Virus record (IMG/VR): IMGVR_UViG_3300033153_008467
Span: 1-57,378 of that record
DNA: 57,378 nucleotides
Origin: a virus
Reading direction: 5' to 3' (one strand)
The translations under genes were made by a program, and so were the position numbers. Positions 1,411-53,425 of the stretch are shown here, piece after piece (positions within the stretch are counted from its first letter, which is position 1; every line of letters starts with the position of its first letter). The notes under the pieces were generated by a model that was not told the DNA's origin, did no database searches, and was given only the letters and a program-made list of their open reading frames with translations.

Positions 1411-2367
1411 ATGAAGATACTCGTGACCGGCGGGCTCGGCACGATAGGCCGGGGATTGGTGGCGGAACTGAGGTCGCGGGGCCACGATGTGGTGTCGTGC
1501 GATCTATGCCACCAGCCGGACCAGCTCGGTTTTCGGACGGGTTCGGACGTGCCGACCCCACGATACGTGCGGTGCGATGTGGGCTGCTACCGCGAATTGC
1601 AGCAGTTGTTCGACCACCGGCCCGTCGATCTCATGTATCACACTGCCGCCGAGTTCGGCAGGTGGAACGGCGAGGACTACTATGAACGGCTGTGGCAGAC
1701 CGGAGCTATTGGGATGCGCAATATCCTGCGGCTCCAGGAATCGCGGCACTTCCGGCTGGTACACCTCTCCACGTCGGAAGTGTACGGCGACTGGGGAGGC
1801 GTGATGGCCGAGCAGGTCATGGACGAGCAGCCGATCCGACAGCTCAACGACTACGCTATCAGCAAGTGGGCGAACGAGCTACAGATCCGCAACTCGATAG
1901 CCCAATATGACACCAGGACGGTCGTCGTGCGGCTCTTCAACACCTACGGCCCCGGGGAGTATTACTCGCCCTACCGCTCGGCCATCTGCCGGTTCGTCTA
2001 CTGCGCCCTGCGCGGCCTACCGTGGACCGTGCACCGAGGCCACGAGCGGACTTCGACGTACATAGACGATACGGTGAGGACGCTCGCGAACATCGCGGAC
2101 AGGTTTCAGCCTGGCGAAGTGTATAATGTGGGCGGCGGTGAGCCTCATACGAACGAGCATGTGTCCGACTGCGTGGTCGCGGCCACGAACGCTGACCCGT
2201 CGCTCGTACAGTACAAGGACTCCGAGCCGCACACGACCAAGAAGAAGATCGTCGACACCGACAGGGCGAAGAGGGATCTCGACCACAGGATCACGGTTTC
2301 GTTAGAAGAGGGAATCAGGAGGACGGTGGAATGGATGAGGCGAACGTACGTGCCCGGCAAGGGCTGA
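1411..2367 (+). CDS. NAD-dependent nucleotide-sugar epimerase/dehydratase (extended SDR)
   Basis: A 318-residue extended short-chain dehydrogenase. The Rossmann motif TGGLGTIG is at residues 6-13, the HLSTSEVYG strand with the catalytic Ser/Thr at 118-126 and the YAISK (YxxxK) catalytic pair at 148-152. The length and the later NTYGPGEYYSPYRS and NVGGGEPHT segments fit UDP/GDP-sugar epimerases or dehydratases of the GalE/RmlB/GMD group. A strong shine-dalgarno (AAGGAGG) precedes the ATG, so this gene may be the strongest translation start of the operon. It would supply an activated sugar to the glycosyltransferases downstream; the exact substrate cannot be read from the sequence. Confidence 0.88.
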   Translation: MKILVTGGLGTIGRGLVAELRSRGHDVVSCDLCHQPDQLGFRTGSDVPTPRYVRCDVGCYRELQQLFDHRPVDLMYHTAAEFGRWNGEDYYERLWQTGAIGMRNILRLQESRHFRLVHLSTSEVYGDWGGVMAEQVMDEQPIRQLNDYAISKWANELQIRNSIAQYDTRTVVVRLFNTYGPGEYYSPYRSAICRFVYCALRGLPWTVHRGHERTSTYIDDTVRTLANIADRFQPGEVYNVGGGEPHTNEHVSDCVVAATNADPSLVQYKDSEPHTTKKKIVDTDRAKRDLDHRITVSLEEGIRRTVEWMRRTYVPGKG

Positions 2368-2903
2368 AGCTGCACCTCGGCTGTGGCGAGATTCTTTTGA
2401 AAGGCTTCGTCAACCTAGACGTCCGGCCGCTCGCCGGAGTAGACCTTGTCAACGACGCCCGCGAGCTGTACGTGTACCGCGACGGCTGCGCCGACCTGGT
2501 CTACGCCAGCCACCTCCTAGAGCACTTCTGGCCGTCCGAGGCCCGGGCCGCGGTCAAGGAATGGCATCGGGTACTTAGGCCCGGCGGTGTGCTCCGTGTG
2601 GCTGTACCGGACTTTGAGGTCATCGCGTCCCGCTACGCGGCCACGGGCGACGTCTACGATCTACGGGGGCTCCTGTATGGCAGCCGCGAATACCCTGACT
2701 ACCCGGAAGATGCCCATCACTCGTGCTGGGATTACGTGCTGCTAGTGAAGCTACTCAGGACGGTCGGCTTCGTAGATCTGCGGCGGTACGACTGGCGGCA
2801 GACGGAGCATGCGGCGACGTTGGACTGCTCGTCGGCGCACCTGCCACGGGGCGACTTCGAGCACGGGCAACTGATGAGCCTAAACGTGGAGGCGACAAAA
2901 TGA
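2331..2903 (+). CDS. class I SAM-dependent methyltransferase
   Basis: A 190-residue protein beginning inside the 3' end of the epimerase gene (37-nt overlap). Motif I is KLHLGCGEILLKGFVNLD, followed by the acidic strand and ASHLLEHFW...EWHRVLRPGGVLRVAVPDF, the usual motif IV/post-IV layout of Methyltransf_11 proteins found in O-antigen loci. It probably methylates a sugar hydroxyl or a lipid-linked intermediate. The reading frame ends in an ATGA overlap with the next gene. Confidence 0.82.
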   Translation: MDEANVRARQGLKLHLGCGEILLKGFVNLDVRPLAGVDLVNDARELYVYRDGCADLVYASHLLEHFWPSEARAAVKEWHRVLRPGGVLRVAVPDFEVIASRYAATGDVYDLRGLLYGSREYPDYPEDAHHSCWDYVLLVKLLRTVGFVDLRRYDWRQTEHAATLDCSSAHLPRGDFEHGQLMSLNVEATK

Positions 2904-3748
2904 AGGGGACGGTACACTTGCAAGTATACAGCGGGCTCGGGTGCCGCCTACGGTGCGTGCTGGCCGCCGTCACATACACGCAGCGGTCCGGCAAGTCGCT
3001 GCACGTCAACTGGCTGAGGAAAGACAAGTCTCAGACGCTCGGGACCTTTGACGTGTCCTTGAACGAGTTATGGCGCGGCCCATACGAGGTGACAAACAAA
3101 GAGGGCAACTGGGGCGCCAAGCTCTTGACGCCCAAGGACGAGCTAGCGGCGGCGCTGGATACGGATGGCGACGTGTGGATCAGGACGGACACCACGATGG
3201 CGTTCGGCTGCCCCGATCTGGCGGGCTGCCTCCAAACGCACCTGACCCCGACGTCGCTCCTGGCCAATCGCACCGCCGCCTTAATGAAGGGCCTGCCGCG
3301 CCCGATCATTGGGCTACACTTCCGGGACGCGGTCATGAGCCGGTCACGGGCTCCGGACCTGAACTGGTACGTTGACCAGCTTCGCGAGATGCCTGAATGG
3401 CCGGTGTATCTCTGTACCGATACGCCTGAGATGGCGAATGCCGTGCGCGAACGCTTAGGAGATCGGGTACTGATAGCCGAACGGGAAGACGACGAACCGG
3501 TCGGAACGTACAATCGGGCCGGCATCATCCAGGTCGCGGCGGAGCTGTACGTGCTCGCCGCGTGCGACTGGGTGTTCGGGTCGCGGGGGTCGACCTACTC
3601 GGAGCTGGTCGCCCTGATGCGCGGGGCGGAGAAGATCGGGCGGGCGCGCGACGCGAAGAGGATGAAGGCGAACCTGACGGGCGGGCGGTACGCCGACGAG
3701 GCGTGCGGTGTTGACACGAAGGCACTAGCCGAGGTGATAGGAGTATGA
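2900..3748 (+). CDS. NodZ/O-fucosyltransferase-like GT-B glycosyltransferase
   Basis: The ATG in the ATGA overlap gives 282 residues. The start, QVYSGLGCRLRCVLAAVTYTQ, resembles the G-G-L-G-N-R-L opening of NodZ and peptide-O-fucosyltransferase-like enzymes. The C-terminal half has IGLHFRDAVMSRSRAP, then YLCTDTPEMANAV and VFGSRGSTYSELVALM, which match the H-x-R, T-D-x-x and S-x-x-S-E elements that bind the GDP-sugar in that fold. The role is probably transfer of fucose or a related GDP-sugar. Length is close to the family's shorter members. The donor and acceptor are inferred from family only. Confidence 0.65.
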   Translation: MKGTVHLQVYSGLGCRLRCVLAAVTYTQRSGKSLHVNWLRKDKSQTLGTFDVSLNELWRGPYEVTNKEGNWGAKLLTPKDELAAALDTDGDVWIRTDTTMAFGCPDLAGCLQTHLTPTSLLANRTAALMKGLPRPIIGLHFRDAVMSRSRAPDLNWYVDQLREMPEWPVYLCTDTPEMANAVRERLGDRVLIAEREDDEPVGTYNRAGIIQVAAELYVLAACDWVFGSRGSTYSELVALMRGAEKIGRARDAKRMKANLTGGRYADEACGVDTKALAEVIGV

Positions 3749-4395
3749 ACATTCTGGCCATCGGCGCCCACTGGGACGACATCGAGTTGGGCTGCTGTCT
3801 GACGCTGGAACGGCTACGGAAGCAAGGGGCGAACCTGTACGGGGTCGTACTGACGGATTCCGAGACGCACATGGAGACGGCGGAACACGACAGGACGGCT
3901 GAGCAGGCTGCGGAGGAAGGCTTGGCGGCGTTCGCCACGATGGGCATCGAGTTCATCGGCACGCCGCCCGTCGACCAGGGAATGCTGGAATATGACACGC
4001 TGCTCATGCGGGGACTGGACCTGGCTGCCCACGAGCGGAAGATTGACACGGTGTTCACTCACTGGCACGGCGACGTGAACACGGACCACCGGGCTGCATG
4101 GGAACTGTCCCGGGTGGCGTTCCGGCACGTCCCGAATCTACTGTGTTATCGCAGCAACGGGTATAGCGACGGCGTGACGAGGTTCGAGCCCAACCTGTTT
4201 TGCGGTTTCAGCGAGCAGGAGTACGGCCGGAAACTGGAATTGCTAAGGCAGCACGCATCTGCATGGGGCTACCGCGAAGATCGATGGCAATGGGAAATCC
4301 TCAACCAGGAATGGTACTGGGGCCACCTATGCAGCCATGACTACGCCGAGGCGTTCCAGGTCTGCCGGTTGCTGAACCCGTGGGAGGCACCGTGA
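3745..4395 (+). CDS. PIG-L family N-acetylglucosaminyl-type deacetylase
   Basis: A 216-residue PIG-L/LmbE protein. The zinc-binding AHWDDIELG (usual AHPDDxExG) is at residues 8-16 and HWHGDVNTDH (usual H-x-D-x-N-x-D-H) at 106-115. These enzymes remove an acetyl group from GlcNAc-containing glycolipids or metabolites. The Pro of the first motif is replaced by Trp, which is uncommon but leaves the ligands intact. It overlaps both neighbours by 4 nt. Confidence 0.88.
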   Translation: MNILAIGAHWDDIELGCCLTLERLRKQGANLYGVVLTDSETHMETAEHDRTAEQAAEEGLAAFATMGIEFIGTPPVDQGMLEYDTLLMRGLDLAAHERKIDTVFTHWHGDVNTDHRAAWELSRVAFRHVPNLLCYRSNGYSDGVTRFEPNLFCGFSEQEYGRKLELLRQHASAWGYREDRWQWEILNQEWYWGHLCSHDYAEAFQVCRLLNPWEAP

Positions 4396-5090
4396 GACCG
4401 CCGGAGAGCATGCCTGAAGCCATGCGAGCCGCCTTCACTATGGACGGCCGGATACCCGTCGAGGCCGCGTACCGTGACGACACGCGGTCTGAGCCGCTGG
4501 TCCTGACGGAGGCGGCCGTCGACGCCGAGGCCGCCAAGGTACGGGCAGGCGGCTCGGTAGGGTATGCCTACACCACCCAAGAGCTGCGGCAAGCGTTCGG
4601 GCGGTGGCCGATCCAGGGAAAGCGAGTCGCCCTAGTCGGTTGCGTGCGGCCGGACTACCCCGGCATGTGTCTCGCGTACGGGGCCGCGAGCATGACCATC
4701 TTCGACCGGAACCGGATCGTGTCCAATCACCCCAAAATATGGAGTTTCGTCCCGGACCAGTGGGATGGCGAGTTATTTGACGCCGTGGTATCGCTGTCGA
4801 TGGTCGACCACGACGGGCTAGGGCGGTATGGCGACCCGATCGACCCAGAGGCGGACGTGAAGGCGATGGCTTGGTTTAGAGATATCCTGAAGCCGAACGG
4901 GCTGCTCTACTTCGCCGTGGCCGTTAGGACCGACTGCGTGATATGGAATAAGGGCCGGGTATATGGTAAACTCCGGATGCCGCTACTGCTGGAGGGATGG
5001 GATGTGCTTTTTGCACCATCGGCATACCAACGGATGGACTTCCCGAACCGCACGGTGATTGCTCTCTTGGTGCTGAAGGAGGAGCGGTGA
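4392..5090 (+). CDS. DUF268-like methyltransferase-fold protein
   Basis: Start taken as GTG in the GTGA overlap with the deacetylase gene (232 residues). A Rossmann-like region (KRVALVGCVRPDYPGMCLAYG) is followed by SMVDHDGLGRYGDPIDPE, the hallmark of the DUF268 family, and GLLYFAVAV. DUF268 proteins resemble SAM methyltransferases and occur in polysaccharide loci. Enzymatic activity has not been established for the family to my knowledge, so 'methyltransferase-like' is an inference. Confidence 0.75.
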   Translation: MRPPESMPEAMRAAFTMDGRIPVEAAYRDDTRSEPLVLTEAAVDAEAAKVRAGGSVGYAYTTQELRQAFGRWPIQGKRVALVGCVRPDYPGMCLAYGAASMTIFDRNRIVSNHPKIWSFVPDQWDGELFDAVVSLSMVDHDGLGRYGDPIDPEADVKAMAWFRDILKPNGLLYFAVAVRTDCVIWNKGRVYGKLRMPLLLEGWDVLFAPSAYQRMDFPNRTVIALLVLKEER

Positions 5091-5716
5091 CCTACAGTCA
5101 ATTTGACGACGAACGAATAATCGCCCACATCCTGAACAATATCGGCGTCTGCCACCGCAGATGCTGTGAGGTGGGTGCGTCGGACGGATTGCATCACAGC
5201 AACACGGCCTGGCTGGTTCGCGAGTGCGGCTGGCACGGCACCTTTATCGAGTGCGACGAAGACAAGACCGGGCAGTGCCGGGATAACTATGAAGCGTATG
5301 ACAACGCCGTAGCTATTCACGATCGGGCCACCGTCGAGAACATCAACGATCTAGTCCCGGACGAGCTAGACTTCCTCTCGATCGACGTTGACGGCAATGA
5401 CTATTACCTCTGGGAGGCCCTGGCATCTCGCCCCCGGCTGATCTGCATCGAATACAATGAGCGGAAGACGGGGCTGGACGTTCAGCTTTATTGCCCCAAG
5501 CGACTGCGAAGTGAGATCGCTGGCGCATCGCCCGCGGCCTTGATACTGCTTGCCGAGGAGAAGGATTGCGTATTGGTTACGGGGGACTACAGGGGTAATC
5601 TGTTTTTTGTTCCGCGGAAACTACACGAGTCCCTCGCCCTTATTCCTCATGAGGCCATGTGTGATCTGGAGTCGTTTCAGCGAAACCATGGGAGAATGAG
5701 ATATGAAGGTGCCTGA
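5087..5716 (+). CDS. FkbM-type methyltransferase
   Basis: GTG start in a GTGA overlap (209 residues). Motif I is CEVGASDGLHHSN, followed by GTFIECDEDKTGQC, LDFLSIDVDGNDYYLWEAL and LICIEYNE. The S-I-D-V-D-G-x-D-Y-x-x-W segment is characteristic of FkbM-like O-methyltransferases. Such enzymes decorate secondary-metabolite or cell-surface sugars. It sits between two other methyltransferase-fold genes, so three consecutive genes probably modify one glycan. Confidence 0.8.
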   Translation: MTYSQFDDERIIAHILNNIGVCHRRCCEVGASDGLHHSNTAWLVRECGWHGTFIECDEDKTGQCRDNYEAYDNAVAIHDRATVENINDLVPDELDFLSIDVDGNDYYLWEALASRPRLICIEYNERKTGLDVQLYCPKRLRSEIAGASPAALILLAEEKDCVLVTGDYRGNLFFVPRKLHESLALIPHEAMCDLESFQRNHGRMRYEGA

Positions 5717-6335
5717 CCTGCCCGAGGAGGCGCTAGCCTACGGCCGACTGTTCGACCGGACGAAGCTCTCGGACAAGATGACGTGGTGCGGCTGGACGGT
5801 GCAGAAGACGCCCGCAGATATGTGGGTCTACCAGGAGATCATCGCGGCCACGAAGCCGGACCTGCTGGTCGAGATCGGCAGCGGCTACGGCGGGACGGCC
5901 CTGTTCTTCGCCTGCGTGATGGAGTCGTTCGGCAAGGGCCGGGTACTGTCGTTCGACCCGAAGCCCAAGGGCTTGAAGTTTGGGATTCCGACGCCGAAGC
6001 ATCCGCGGCTGAAGTTCGTGACGGACGACGCGAGGCTCCATGTTGACCGTGTGCGGCGAGCGGTCAAGTTGGGCGATCGCCTGATGGTGATTGAGGACGC
6101 GAACCACACGTACTCGGTCACGTCCGGCTGCCTGGAGGTGTTTTCGCCGCTGGTCGCCCGGGATTGCTACTACGTGGTCGAGGACACCGACCGGCACCGC
6201 GGCGAGGGCAACAACGTCTGGCGGGCGGTCTGCGACTTCCTGGAGCAGAACCCCAAGTGGGAGATCGACTGGGCAGCGGAGAAGTATTATCACACGACCT
6301 GCCACGGCGGGTTCCTGAGACGGAGAACCAAGTAG
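5703..6335 (+). CDS. CmcI/cephalosporin-hydroxylase-family methyltransferase
   Basis: A 210-residue protein with WCGWTVQKTPADMWVYQEII, the opening typical of the CmcI family, followed by the SAM motif LLVEIGSGYGGTALFFA, VLSFDPKP and DRLMVIEDANHTY. Despite the 'hydroxylase' name the fold is a class I methyltransferase; family members are common in glycan and rhamnosyl-modification clusters. It overlaps the upstream gene by 14 nt. Confidence 0.8.
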   Translation: MKVPDLPEEALAYGRLFDRTKLSDKMTWCGWTVQKTPADMWVYQEIIAATKPDLLVEIGSGYGGTALFFACVMESFGKGRVLSFDPKPKGLKFGIPTPKHPRLKFVTDDARLHVDRVRRAVKLGDRLMVIEDANHTYSVTSGCLEVFSPLVARDCYYVVEDTDRHRGEGNNVWRAVCDFLEQNPKWEIDWAAEKYYHTTCHGGFLRRRTK

Positions 6336-43955: not shown

Positions 43956-46900
43956 TTAGAAAACAGAAACCGGAGTGCACCGGCAGCCGCATCGGAGATG
44001 AGGCGGCAGCGAATGGTGTCCCGGGTACGGCACCTTGTAGCCCGACACGTTGAACAAGCCGTCGGGCGAATCGGGGCCCGGAGCGACGACGCCATTCAAT
44101 GCCCGATGCTCGGGCCGCAAGTACTGGTCGTCGGTCACGGTCCACCGCTTGCCTCGGATGAGCCCCTGCTGTAGTAGCTCATCTTGCTGAGCATTGTGCC
44201 CGGAATTAAGTAAACCTGTCGTGTTCCCTGTGTATAATTGGGCAGCGTTGAAGTATCCGTGAACCGTAGTAAGGTTGTAGACATGCCCAAACCAATTCGG
44301 GACGCAGACAAGATTCGAGACGCGGTCAATCTCTATGCGTCCGGCCTTAGTTGCCGAGAGGTTGCCGAGAAAACCGGAACCAGCGGACACTGGGTCCGCC
44401 GTAAGTGCCGAGAGGCTGGTGTCATGCGGTCGCGGTCTGAATCTGCGACTTCGTGGCAAGGTCTCGCCCCGGATATGGCCGATCGCGCCGTGACCATATA
44501 CCGGTCCGGCAAGAGCTATCGCACCGTGGCTGGCATCTTGGGCGTTGGCCCCGACGCCGTACTTGGAGCGTTGCGGCGTGCCGGGGTCAAGTGCCGATCG
44601 TTGTCCGCCGCACGCCAGACACTTCTGGCCACGGGCTATCGCAGCAATACCAAAAACCTGCCTGAATTGATGATCGTTGCGGACTACGCTTCGGGTATCC
44701 AAGTTCGAGACATCTGCCTGAAATACGGTATCGCCAAAGGCACCGTGAGGCGACTTGTCTTGAAACACGGCGGCTGCATGCGAAGCTTCCCAGAATCCAT
44801 GGCATCCATCGATCGGGAGGCCGCGAGCGAACGGTGCGCTGTGAACTGCCATTACAAGACATCTCGCGTCGGTTGGGGTGAGGATGCCGTCTACGGCGAA
44901 CTCGTCAACCGCGGCAAATCTCCCGATCGACAGTATCCCGTCGGGACGAAGAACATCGACATTGCCCTCCTGCCCGTCGCCGTGGAAATCTGGCTCTCCG
45001 CTTCGTTCCCGAGCCGAGAAGATTACTGCCGAAAGCGAATCAAATATCTCTCCGATCGTGGCTGGACATGCCTTTACGTTCTGATCTCGCGACGGACGCG
45101 GCGGCTCGACGTTGGGCCGGTGTGCGATGAGATAATCCGATTCCGTCAGCTCGCACAGGGGCACCCATCCGCGAACCGTGAGCATTGGGTGATTCGGGGA
45201 ACCGGTGAGTTCGCGGCCCGATTCGGTGACGACTTTGAACATCGGGCCCCGGTAGAATCGCCGGTAGGCTGCCGTGAGTACCGCCCCGTCAACCGGAGTG
45301 TCCCCAGCTAGGCACTCGGTCCGGTAGATGTTCGCCGACCTCGCCACCGTCGTCTGCGAGCCCAGCACCCCGTCCGTTACCCCGGGCACCGTCGGCGAGT
45401 CCCCGATCCGCACAATCATCTCGTACTCGCTCTCGCCAGCCGCGATCCCCTCGCTCATCGTCTTCGCCAACGCCTTCCGCGTCGTCTGGTTGATGTTCGG
45501 CGAGAAGTTCTGCGTCAGGATCGTGTCCAGCTCCGCCTGCATGGCGGCCTGGACCGCCGGCGACAGCTCCGATGCCTCGATGAACTGCTTGCTGCGATGC
45601 GGCGACAGCTCCCGCATAGCCCCGTCCAGGATGATCGACTCGCACGTCGGCCCGACCGCCGCGATCAGCCGCTCGTCCCAGTCCACCGAGTCGAACACCT
45701 CGGCCACGATCGCCTCGGCCGACACGCCCGCCAGCCCCGAGCCGGCCAGCTTGTGAAAACGCCTCTGCACTTCCTCCCGCTGGTCCTTGAAGAACTCCGT
45801 CACCACCACGTCCAGCCGCTTCTCGTGCTGCCCGTGGGCCTTCAGCCACGCCTGGGCCCGGCGGTCCTCCGGCGACTTGGCGGCGGCCAGTCCGGCAGTG
45901 GGCAGCGACTTGGCCGGCTCTACGGGCATGAGCACCTGCGTCGGCGGGGCGGCCATCGTGTCGCCGTCCGCGATCTCGCCGAGCCCAAGCAGCCCGGCCC
46001 GCAGCTCGTTGCGGTTGCAGCTCTGGTACTTCGCCAGCACCTCCCAATCCGCACGCCGCTCCTCCCGGTCGTCCGGCGTGTACGGCTCGACCCACATCAC
46101 CAGCCGGTCACGGCCGTTCGAGAACCGCGGGGCGAACTTCTTCGACATCACCTTGCTGATCAGCTCCAGCCGGGGGTTGATCGTGAAGTCGCCGAAGTGC
46201 CGCCGAGCCTCCGCCGACGCCGCCCGGCTCGACGGCTCAGTGGCCCCCATCACGTACGGGTGGCTACCGATCCCCTGAGTGATCCGATCGTACGTCGACT
46301 TGCCACTATCGAGGAAATCCATCTCCTCCACCGTGTTACTTATCCTCTCCAACTTCTTGAACAGGGCGCTTAGCAATATCGGCGTCCCCGTCCGCTGTGC
46401 CCCGACCCACCGCTGGGCGATGGCTGTCTCCATCAATAGGTGCATGTGCTCCGGCAGCATCGGCGTACCGTCTTCCTCCTCCTCATCCGCGGGGTCGCCG
46501 GCGAAGATCGCGTATCGCGGGAACATACCATTCTCGAATAGGGCTTCCTGGGCAAGCTGGATCGACTCGTCCGTCCGCACGGCCCGATGCTGCGCCTCGA
46601 CTGGCGACCTGGAACCTAGCAGGCTCGACGGATCGGGATAGTGATAGAGGATGATCTCGTGGCCGGGAACATCCTTGCTCTCCATCCCGCCGCCCGGGAA
46701 AACCTTCCAGCCAGAGAACAGCCCGCCCTCATGGTCCGGCACAACCCACGACGTGGGCAGCGGCCAGACGACGTGCCCCCCTTGGGTCCGACGCGCGCTC
46801 GTCTTCGTGTCCCACCAGTAGGCTCTCCCGGTCAAATCCATGTTGACGACCGTCAGCCACAATAGGTGCCAGTCGGTCATCACCGGGTTGGGGTCCTCCA

Positions 46901-47330
46901 GCAGGTCGAGGGCCCGGTGCGTCTCGTGGATCTCCAGATCGGGGGCCGAAGCCTTGAGATGCTTCGGTAGCAGAACCTCGCGGCCGTCGTTGGTCCGGGC
47001 CCAGAACGCCGTCTCCATCCCGTTGACCGGGCGGATGGACCGGATCGACCGGGCGGTCGCTCGGGACGAGTCCGGCTTCCGCAGCTTGGCAATACGGACG
47101 TCTTGCCCCGCCACGGTGTTCGCGATCGGCCTGATCGCCGCCTGAACCACGCCACGGAAGTGCAGGTAGTCGGACTCGGCGCCCAGGTCGCGGGCCATCG
47201 ACGGTATGACGGGTCCCAGGGCCACGCCTCCCTCGGCGAGCCCGGTGCCTGCGACGGCGCGGAACTGGGCGACGCGTGCGCGGCTCTGGGACCTGAGATT
47301 GCTGGCACGCTCGGCGGCTGCGACGGTCAT
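43956..47330 (-). CDS. portal protein fused to a MuF-type head protein, with intein
   Basis: The ATG in the TAATG junction with the upstream gene gives 1124 residues. The first half is an HK97/SPP1-like portal: WVGAQRTGTPILLSALFKKL, YDRITQGIGSHPYVMGATEP and EARRHFGDFTINPRLELISK. The second is a MuF (SPP1 gp7-like) domain: RKALAKTMSEGIAAGESEYE, RSANIYRTE|TTGLLNSGHN and HLRCGCRCTPVSVF. The intein occupies residues 673-1036; after splicing the protein is 760 residues. Fusion of portal and MuF is known in other phages. Because both functions are essential, splicing must be efficient. Confidence 0.88.
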   Translation of the reverse strand: MTVAAAERASNLRSQSRARVAQFRAVAGTGLAEGGVALGPVIPSMARDLGAESDYLHFRGVVQAAIRPIANTVAGQDVRIAKLRKPDSSRATARSIRSIRPVNGMETAFWARTNDGREVLLPKHLKASAPDLEIHETHRALDLLEDPNPVMTDWHLLWLTVVNMDLTGRAYWWDTKTSARRTQGGHVVWPLPTSWVVPDHEGGLFSGWKVFPGGGMESKDVPGHEIILYHYPDPSSLLGSRSPVEAQHRAVRTDESIQLAQEALFENGMFPRYAIFAGDPADEEEEDGTPMLPEHMHLLMETAIAQRWVGAQRTGTPILLSALFKKLERISNTVEEMDFLDSGKSTYDRITQGIGSHPYVMGATEPSSRAASAEARRHFGDFTINPRLELISKVMSKKFAPRFSNGRDRLVMWVEPYTPDDREERRADWEVLAKYQSCNRNELRAGLLGLGEIADGDTMAAPPTQVLMPVEPAKSLPTAGLAAAKSPEDRRAQAWLKAHGQHEKRLDVVVTEFFKDQREEVQRRFHKLAGSGLAGVSAEAIVAEVFDSVDWDERLIAAVGPTCESIILDGAMRELSPHRSKQFIEASELSPAVQAAMQAELDTILTQNFSPNINQTTRKALAKTMSEGIAAGESEYEMIVRIGDSPTVPGVTDGVLGSQTTVARSANIYRTECLAGDTPVDGAVLTAAYRRFYRGPMFKVVTESGRELTGSPNHPMLTVRGWVPLCELTESDYLIAHRPNVEPPRPSRDQNVKACPATIGEIFDSLSAVIFSARERSGEPDFHGDGQEGNVDVLRPDGILSIGRFAAVDEFAVDGILTPTDARCLVMAVHSAPFARGLPIDGCHGFWEASHAAAVFQDKSPHGAFGDTVFQADVSNLDTRSVVRNDHQFRQVFGIAAIARGQKCLACGGQRSALDPGTPQRSKYGVGANAQDASHGAIALAGPVYGHGAIGHIRGETLPRSRRFRPRPHDTSLSALTADPVSAGSGFLGNLSATKAGRIEIDRVSNLVCVPNWFGHVYNLTTVHGYFNAAQLYTGNTTGLLNSGHNAQQDELLQQGLIRGKRWTVTDDQYLRPEHRALNGVVAPGPDSPDGLFNVSGYKVPYPGHHSLPPHLRCGCRCTPVSVF
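44233..44238 (+). promoter_or_regulatory. -10 element for the nested endonuclease gene
   Basis: A perfect TATAAT lies inside the C-terminal edge of the intein (antisense of the Gln-Leu-Tyr codons CAA-TTA-TAC), 44 nt before the ATG. The -35 region is poor. A TAAGG stretch ahead of the ATG could serve as ribosome site. Confidence 0.45.
44283..45311 (+). CDS. homing-endonuclease-like protein, nested antisense in the intein
   Basis: A 342-residue protein starting MPKPIRDADKIRDAVNLYAS. Three HTH repeats come first: SGLSCREVAEKTGTSGHWVR, SGKSYRTVAGILGVGPDAVL and SGIQVRDICLKYGIAKGTVR. Then a Vsr-like nuclease domain from about residue 197: GEDAVYGELVNRGKSPDRQY, PVGTKNIDIALLPVAVEIWL and RIKYLSDRGWTCLYVLISR. 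The E ... N-I-D-I-A ... V-E-I order matches the EDxHD family (I-Bth0305I group). The family His after V-E-I is not where expected (SASFP), so activity is uncertain. An in-frame ATG 15 codons upstream is possible but leaves no leader after the TATAAT. Confidence 0.85.
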   Translation: MPKPIRDADKIRDAVNLYASGLSCREVAEKTGTSGHWVRRKCREAGVMRSRSESATSWQGLAPDMADRAVTIYRSGKSYRTVAGILGVGPDAVLGALRRAGVKCRSLSAARQTLLATGYRSNTKNLPELMIVADYASGIQVRDICLKYGIAKGTVRRLVLKHGGCMRSFPESMASIDREAASERCAVNCHYKTSRVGWGEDAVYGELVNRGKSPDRQYPVGTKNIDIALLPVAVEIWLSASFPSREDYCRKRIKYLSDRGWTCLYVLISRRTRRLDVGPVCDEIIRFRQLAQGHPSANREHWVIRGTGEFAARFGDDFEHRAPVESPVGCREYRPVNRSVPS

Positions 47331-47713
47331 TACGTTCGCCTCCTGGGCTGGGCCACCATTCCCCCGAACGCTTCGCATGCGTTGAGCACCGCCGTGTGGG
47401 CCCCGAACATAGCCATCACGTTCTCGTGGGCCGTCTGGAACGCCTCGACCTCGGCCGTACGGGCCGCTACCTGGGCCTCAGCTTCGGCCAGCTCGGCGCG
47501 CAGCCGGCGAACCTCGACCGCCGCGTCCTCTTCGGCCAGGACCAGCTGGCCCTCCAGCCTGACGATCCGGCCCCGCAGCACCTTGGCCTCGGCCCGCAGC
47601 CGACGCTCCTCGGCGGACGACCGGCATTTGCCCAACCGCCGGGCAATCCACCCCGTCACGACCGCCCACAGGCCCCAACATCTTCCCTCGATAGTCCGGA
47701 CGGCTCGCCACAT
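47330..47713 (-). CDS. membrane-anchored coiled-coil protein
   Basis: A 127-residue protein. The first 27 residues (WGLWAVVTGWIARRLG) are hydrophobic enough for one membrane segment; the rest is a coiled coil (RLRAEAKVLRGRIVRLEGQL, AAVEVRRLRAELAEAEAQVA). It is the first gene of the portal operon, starting almost at the predicted transcription start. The plan recalls spanins or Rz-like proteins, but no lysis context was seen. Confidence 0.55.
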   Translation of the reverse strand: MWRAVRTIEGRCWGLWAVVTGWIARRLGKCRSSAEERRLRAEAKVLRGRIVRLEGQLVLAEEDAAVEVRRLRAELAEAEAQVAARTAEVEAFQTAHENVMAMFGAHTAVLNACEAFGGMVAQPRRRT

Positions 47714-52557: not shown

Positions 52558-53425
52558 CGCTCGCCTCCCTCGGGTCGACGCACCGCAGCGCGACCATCCC
52601 GCCCGGCAACGATCGCCGCGTTACGTGGAGCCCCCGATAGGACGCACGCAAGGCTGTTGTGGTCGCTTGCCTGGCGGTCATCGTCCGCTCCTGTCCGTCC
52701 AGTAGGCGATTCACCTCGGCCGTGCTAGTGCGCGGAGCCCGCTTCGCCCGGTCATACTGCCCAACGGGGCGCTTCTGGATTCCACGGAGCACATAAGCAG
52801 CGGTGGTAATGCAGCTCGTCCCGAGAATCTCCACCGCAACCTCAGTCAGCGACATGCCGGAGCGGTACGCTTTGCCTGCTCTATACCGTTGGTAGAATCG
52901 CTTCTGTCGTCGGTAGTTCACCCGCCATTGCTCGCGTTCTCGATGGTTCAGCCGGACCATAGGGTTATGCCTTGGTCCGCTCTTCCGGCTTGGCTCGCCA
53001 GCCCTCTTTAGGATTTGCCGAACTCGTTCTTGCGTAATGCCGAGCTGTTGGCCGACTTCTCGCATCGTGAGCGGCTGGCGGTACAGGGCGACTGCGGGAT
53101 GGTTGGTGAAGTCCTTCCGACTCGCTACGTATGCACACCGCCGGCAGCGTTTTGATTCAGGGGATTTCCGAGCACCGCACTCAGGGCAGGTTGGACGGTG
53201 ATCACTGGGGCGCAAACCCTTGTTACGTCTTTTCACGTCCTCCGCCCACTGGCGGCATTTGCGGCAGAGCCCGGTCGTCGAGTGCGTCTGGTGCACGCCG
53301 CACCGCTCACACACTTTTCGCGCGTCGCTGTAGCTCACCCCGGCATACTCAGCAGCCAATCTCGGCTGCACGCCCAGCGCCCGATACCCAAGATATAGCC
53401 GCTTCCCCCGCTTGAGCTGCATCAT
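52553..53425 (-). CDS. zinc-ribbon/HTH DNA-binding protein between terS and terL
   Basis: A 290-residue basic protein. VCERCGVHQTHSTTGLCRKC and CPECGARKSPESKRCRRC form two zinc ribbons; LTMREVGQQLGITQERVRQI is a sigma-region-4-like HTH; SGMSLTEVAVEILGTSCITT a second one. The HTH style and R-S-G-x-S spacing recall the repeats of the nested endonuclease at 44-45 kb. No nuclease motif is visible. It could be a regulator, a packaging factor, or the binding half of a free-standing homing protein. Confidence 0.7.
   Translation of the reverse strand: MMQLKRGKRLYLGYRALGVQPRLAAEYAGVSYSDARKVCERCGVHQTHSTTGLCRKCRQWAEDVKRRNKGLRPSDHRPTCPECGARKSPESKRCRRCAYVASRKDFTNHPAVALYRQPLTMREVGQQLGITQERVRQILKRAGEPSRKSGPRHNPMVRLNHREREQWRVNYRRQKRFYQRYRAGKAYRSGMSLTEVAVEILGTSCITTAAYVLRGIQKRPVGQYDRAKRAPRTSTAEVNRLLDGQERTMTARQATTTALRASYRGLHVTRRSLPGGMVALRCVDPREASD

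Follow-up and report, generated by a model that had tools for sequence, protein, structure and literature searches.

In the homing elements known so far, the nuclease is encoded in frame, within a loop of a non-coding intron or between two split halves. Large inteins that carry an in-frame LAGLIDADG or HNH domain contain the nuclease in the middle of their Hint domain and home as a unit, while fractured genes, reportedly described by Dassa et al. (2009; cited in PMC3229294), consist of a split intein and split host gene with an EDxHD endonuclease gene between the halves. The EDxHD enzyme I-Bth0305I (PDB 3r3p; PMC3943268) is described with group I intron enzymes and not with an overlapping coding strand. 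Antisense homing endonuclease genes occur in nuclear rDNA group I introns, where the splicing element is a non-coding ribozyme. An antisense nuclease within an intein is not described in the open-access literature that we searched, phage intein papers included (subscription papers and preprints were outside the scope), and PMC6776784 describes the intein of phage Snoke without mention of one. The locus analysed here, in an IMG/VR virus record of 57,378 bases (the window), is very likely a mobile intein whose homing endonuclease is encoded antisense in the same DNA, with expression, splicing, cleavage and homing being inferred.

The sense gene is a portal–MuF fusion of 1140 codons (43956..47378, − strand), whose product of 1140 aa matches the profiles Phage_portal (PF04860, 4.9e-25), Phage_Mu_F (PF04233, 3.2e-5) and Intein_splicing (PF14890, 2.5e-4). 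An intein of 364 codons (44223..45314, −) interrupts the RTE motif of MuF, starting with C1, ending in TGN364 and followed by Thr as the +1 residue. It separates an N-extein containing the portal and the first part of MuF, which ends in SANIYRTE (45315..47378, −), from a C-extein containing the remainder of MuF, from TTGLLN to CGCRCTPVSVF (43956..44222, −). Intein_splicing was found in all 42 members of the intein family, and C1, N41, H42 and N364 are invariant, as is P43. The AlphaFold model of the sense intein is good only at residues 1–67, in parts of 80–135 and at about 325–364, and the fold search showed that the modelled part resembles known inteins. The N-terminal splicing region (residues 1–66; 45117..45314, −) includes block B, TGSPNHP, and the C-terminal region (residues 325–364; 44223..44342, −) includes block F, GHVYNL, and the terminal TGN, with blocks at pLDDT 93–97 in both regions (from residue 331 in the latter). 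Inteins at the RTE site end in Gly-Asn rather than His-Asn, and Gly is the penultimate residue in the window. Residues 145–321 (44352..44882, −) mostly have pLDDT below 50 and appear to be an open but unstructured translation of the antisense gene. No nuclease domain was found when the sense frame of the intein family was searched by profile. Residues 80–130 of the sense alignment (A3) contain a conserved module, P..I..IF..L...DFHGDG..G.VDV, which is modelled with fair to good confidence and exactly overlaps the antisense nuclease core.

On the + strand, the antisense gene comprises 342 codons from an ATG (44283..45311), or 357 codons from an in-frame TTG at 44238, and is supported by its reading frame, profiles, tblastn matches and AlphaFold model. 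The two frames are codon-aligned, with + position 2 opposite − position 2 and + position 3 opposite − position 1. The ATG (44283..44285) lies opposite the His codon (CAT) of GHVYNL, and a Shine–Dalgarno-like AAGG (44271..44274), 8 nt upstream, lies opposite the Asn-Leu codons of the same block. In 75 of 92 non-redundant loci the start codon is opposite the His of GHV[YF][ND]L (8 loci have no recognizable block F), reading ATG in 63 and GTG in 12 of the 75; the corresponding CAT accounts for only 36% of extein His codons (p 2e-17). Because His and start codon are equivalent at this position, it is the codon choice, and not the His itself, that counts as evidence for a start. A Shine–Dalgarno-like core opposite the Asn-Leu codons following this His is present in 71/75 loci, and the block F Leu codon is CTC or CTT in 63/75, against a background of 40%. 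At the other end, the stop codon TAG (45309..45311) lies opposite intein codon 2 (CTA, Leu), a codon that is CTA or TTA, and thus an antisense stop, in 16 of 17 RTE-site inteins compared with 8% of extein Leu codons. The start and ribosome-binding site opposite block F and the stop opposite codon 2 therefore place the nuclease gene wholly inside the intein. The initial annotation, which had proposed an antisense gene ending exactly at this codon, was correct in that respect; its promoter-like TATAAT at the opposite edge (44233..44238, +) exists as a hexamer and candidate −10 element, but a promoter role is unsupported, since no −35 element was found and a promoter scan gave nothing above shuffled sequences. 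Reading frame length was rejected as evidence for the gene, because other antisense ORFs of 200–350 aa are present in the GC-rich window. That the gene goes beyond chance is shown by helix-turn-helix (HTH) profile matches, by tblastn matches to antisense strands of other phages, and by the AlphaFold model (mean pLDDT 88).

The model of the antisense protein consists of three HTH units and an alpha/beta core. HTH 1 (residues 7–44; 44301..44414, +) is supported by HTH_23 (2.8e-9) and model helices, HTH 2 (residues 63–99; 44469..44579, +) by model helices, and HTH 3 (residues 122–161; 44646..44765, +) by HTH_7 (2.1e-7 to 2.5e-7) and the model. The Vsr/DUF559/I-Bth0305I-like core (residues 178–293; 44814..45161, +) is supported by profile, fold match and conservation. 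Identification of the nuclease required a family profile, because the window protein alone matches a nuclease profile only weakly (E 0.14); a single-sequence PDB search returned only unrelated matches, and viral scans with single proteins found little. With the family, PDB 3hrl (endonuclease-like) is matched at 2.7e-5, and 24/47 members match MTES_1575 and 5/47 match DUF559. The best nuclease match in Foldseek is the catalytic domain of I-Bth0305I (3r3p, two chains), which is good by probability (0.98 and 0.95; TM by target 0.57) but not by E-value (0.07–0.12, best 0.068), and no match to I-Bth0305I was found here at the sequence level. E200, D226 and E235 show little or no variation, while the His following E235 (residue 242) occurs in only 18/47 members. 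A Vsr-like nuclease fold is shown computationally, and cleavage by the protein is inferred. The proposal of a Vsr/EDxHD-type nuclease gene antisense within an unsplit intein held, with the Vsr-like type being what the family profiles and the fold support, and neither finding that would have refuted it was obtained, i.e. a + frame without any profile match to Vsr/EDxHD proteins or homologous inteins with regularly interrupted antisense frames; these frames stay open. A second HTH protein region elsewhere in the window (52655..53119, −) matches the nuclease profile in the DNA-binding part alone (1e-7).

Compared with the described systems, the locus resembles fractured genes in that an intein is associated with a Vsr-type homing nuclease encoded apart from the splicing domain. 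It differs in that the intein is in one piece and shares its DNA with the nuclease gene, which runs on the opposite strand; the sense frame is open across the insertion, as had been expected, and there is no split intein, that is, no separate ORFs around a nuclease gene. The similarity to I-Bth0305I lies in the fold of the catalytic domain and in a multi-domain organization with a separate DNA-binding region, which in the antisense family is an HTH array. As in the large inteins, Hint and nuclease are encoded together with the nuclease in the middle, but here the sense frame contains no nuclease domain and the nuclease is a separate protein of the opposite strand. The nuclear rDNA group I introns likewise have a nuclease gene antisense to the host gene inside a splicing element, whereas here the strand opposite the nuclease gene is itself translated and has to be kept open.

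Which strand selection acts on was determined from codon positions in two phage groups. Among three Gordonia phages, differences at sense positions 1 and 3 number 136:83 in the middle of the intein and 6:54 in the splicing ends (Fisher p 1e-13, counting pairwise differences among three genomes). In an ungapped comparison of eight Guernseyvirinae phages over 1860 bases, position 1 accounts for 54–74% of the changes in intein codons 91–225, for 10% in block F/G and for 15–23% in the exteins, and in distant pairs the protein identity of the middle is about 52% in the sense but 70% in the antisense frame. Because the substitutions in the middle fall on sense first and antisense third positions, it is the antisense protein that selection keeps there, and the sense frame is merely kept open. 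The requirement for an open sense frame also explains why Leu TTA and CTA and Ser TCA are missing from the antisense frame, with none in any of eight diverse phages compared with 2.0 to 13.6 expected per gene from the phages' codon usage (summed log10 probability −33, only if the phages are taken as independent). At the catalytic strand, per-codon entropies indicate constraint on both strands, with antisense P-V-A-V-E235 opposite the sense motif DFHGDG (residues 109–114, F110 invariant; 44973..44990, −). Distances between splicing domains and between nucleases are correlated (r 0.61–0.64), with the shared ancestry of the hosts not removed. Both reading frames, the antisense selection and the nuclease and Hint folds are shown computationally.

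The arrangement is not a single oddity but represents a widespread class of inteins. A tblastn search of phage genomes with the antisense protein gave matches over about 90% of its length in 29 records, including Gordonia, Aggregatibacter, Pseudomonas, Cronobacter and Vibrio phages, the matches lying antisense to genes of other phages that contain an intein. Same-frame antisense homologues lie inside inteins of Gordonia, Rhodococcus, Salmonella, Pantoea, Edwardsiella, Cronobacter, Vibrio, Pseudomonas and Aggregatibacter phages. In the annotated records inspected, the match was always antisense to a single annotated gene, namely a MuF or head gene with the exception of Rctr197k (annotated as head morphogenesis, dCMP deaminase by profile), and none of these annotations included an antisense gene; such genes are missed because annotation pipelines reject antisense overlaps. 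All 12 inteins that were dissected, i.e. that of the window, those of nine phages from tblastn and two from IMG/VR, have a homologous ORF placed in identical register to the sense frame (alignment A1), and 12 further genome loci also carry the antisense gene. Seven phages found via the sense intein alone (ViaConlectus, SE1, BPS11Q3, AH01, MSW-3, Vibrio 1.113 and REQ3) had been intended as controls free of the antisense gene and failed as such, since all of them carry it (profile E-values 1e-33 to 1e-56). In AT-richer phages the antisense strand of the exteins is full of stops and that of the intein is open; Vibrio phage 1.113 has 20 stops antisense to its MuF gene, yet a 326-codon stop-free stretch over the intein. 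In IMG/VR, the antisense gene retrieved 196 relatives and the sense intein at least 572. Among the best 80 of the latter, found by the sense splicing motif, the nuclease is present at profile level in 74 of 74 non-duplicates, although this sample is biased towards similar copies. In a separate set of 80 loci, 79 have no sense stop in the matched span. Besides MuF, interrupted at two sites, the host genes include those for a UDG–DNA polymerase A (UDG-PolA), a dCMP deaminase and a putative metallopeptidase.

The intein and its nuclease move as a whole unit, as indicated by exact empty sites and by near-identical inteins in diverged flanks. In the relative L101, the MuF C-terminus is 71% identical and reads SANIARTE-TTGVLN, which is the window's insertion site, empty; L101 has a related antisense-bearing intein at a second MuF site, before CRC, and this CRC site is empty in the window. 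In Guernseyvirinae, the empty genes of SP049, Shemara and XY2 contrast with an exact 816-bp insertion (272 codons), and empty SP049 and SE1 are 91.8% identical over the joined exteins. The SE1 MuF gene is common to 512 phage records, 70 of which cover at least 80% of it, i.e. with the intein included. PMC6776784 also documents intein presence and absence for Snoke, LSPA1 and K1ind2. In the SE1/W5 pair the inteins are 99.5% identical and the flanks 88.1 and 85.7%, and in VSe101/MET the inteins are 99.1% and the exteins 87.4 and 91.7% identical. The check suggested in the initial annotation, whether the whole block comes and goes together, thus came out in its favour in both the Guernseyvirinae insertion and the L101 empty site. 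Exact empty sites, presence and absence of the whole unit and recent transfer between phages are shown computationally, the last by indirect evidence from sequence only; the SE1/W5 excess in particular probably reflects such a transfer. Stronger constraint on the intein could explain some of the excess in distant pairs, but does not easily account for SE1/W5.

The frequency of damaged copies is underestimated because the searches favoured similar copies. Across 92 loci, the profile span contains no antisense stop over its first 93%. Erosion of the nuclease does happen, since one copy (L179, from 2501) is shortened to an intein of 191 residues, lacking the first catalytic Glu together with some of the HTH region but with an intact sense frame; it may be a step towards a mini-intein. 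Another (L139) has a single antisense stop about 14% of the way through the profile span, within the HTH region, which could mean either inactivation or a later start. A copy apparently broken in both frames (L040) was rejected as such, as it shows a short internal duplication that is probably an assembly error. Frameshifted copies were not seen, and we infer that this may be because, with the shared codon register, an indel disrupting the nuclease frame would disrupt the host protein as well.

In the mechanism that we propose, the sense strand would be translated within portal–MuF and the intein would splice itself out via its Hint ends, with most of its middle only a tolerated spacer. The antisense strand would give a separate, free protein, whose three HTH units would recognize and whose Vsr-type nuclease would cut intein-less MuF at the insertion site, so that repair from an intein-bearing copy would insert the entire unit including the nuclease gene. 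Such a nuclease could be expressed independently of the head gene and be free of the splicing domain while remaining inseparable from the intein DNA. A bolder reading, which we consider likely, is that of a distinct and widespread class of mobile elements with a splicing protein and a homing nuclease on opposite strands in a locked codon register, where the ribosome-binding site, the start and, in one subgroup, the stop of the nuclease gene are built from essential splicing blocks, and where selection on the host gene would police the nuclease against frameshift decay.

The alternative that survives best, though we regard it as unlikely, is that the antisense protein is a real nuclease-like protein with another role, such as a DNA-binding regulator, exclusion of competing phages or DNA processing, and merely a passenger in the intein. 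In its favour, the HTH units are similar to those of regulators, not all nucleases of the DUF559/MTES_1575 type are homing enzymes, and there are no cleavage data. Against it, complete nesting inside the intein, exact gain and loss of the unit, greater similarity of inteins than of flanks and varied host genes are what homing predicts; the two readings are not mutually exclusive, because a homing enzyme can also exclude competing phages. Less probable still is that the gene is an unexpressed relic, kept only because the sense frame cannot be broken. The shortened copy L179 could be taken to support this, but sense selection alone would neither leave antisense third positions variable with antisense residues fixed nor favour ATG and stop codons, and the absence of stops from the first 93% of the profile span in the 92 loci is a further argument against it. 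A mirror artefact, in which the antisense ORF is open opposite a conserved GC-rich sense protein without being a gene, is consistent with the long antisense ORFs of the window and with a frame relation that mirrors sense conservation onto the antisense strand, but is all but ruled out, as the codon-position test refutes it (conservation in the middle follows the antisense and not the sense codon positions) and it is contradicted by HTH and nuclease profiles matching the antisense frame only, by a model confidence of 88 for the antisense protein against below 50 for the sense middle, and by AT-richer phages with stops antisense to exteins and none antisense to the intein.

A mobile intein with an antisense homing nuclease would explain how a free-standing nuclease travels with an intein. 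A single DNA here codes on both strands over about 230–340 codons, with the nuclease core superimposed on a conserved sense motif, and the arrangement recurs in phages of different bacterial phyla and in different host genes, across hundreds of phages, with an assignable function for each strand. It would give a natural system for studies of dual-strand coding, and would be a source of many new nucleases whose target sites can be predicted.

In one locus (L071), the sense ORF at 1589–6241 encodes a UDG–DNA polymerase A protein in which Intein_splicing matches two stretches, one or both of them with the antisense gene. A MuF gene in another locus (L038, 3908–4975 and downstream) has motifs suggestive of two inteins, one at the RTE and one at the CRC site. 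In KX853510 (L010, 616–1968), a dCMP deaminase with an antisense-bearing intein is annotated as head morphogenesis, so that the annotation tracks the intein and not the host protein.
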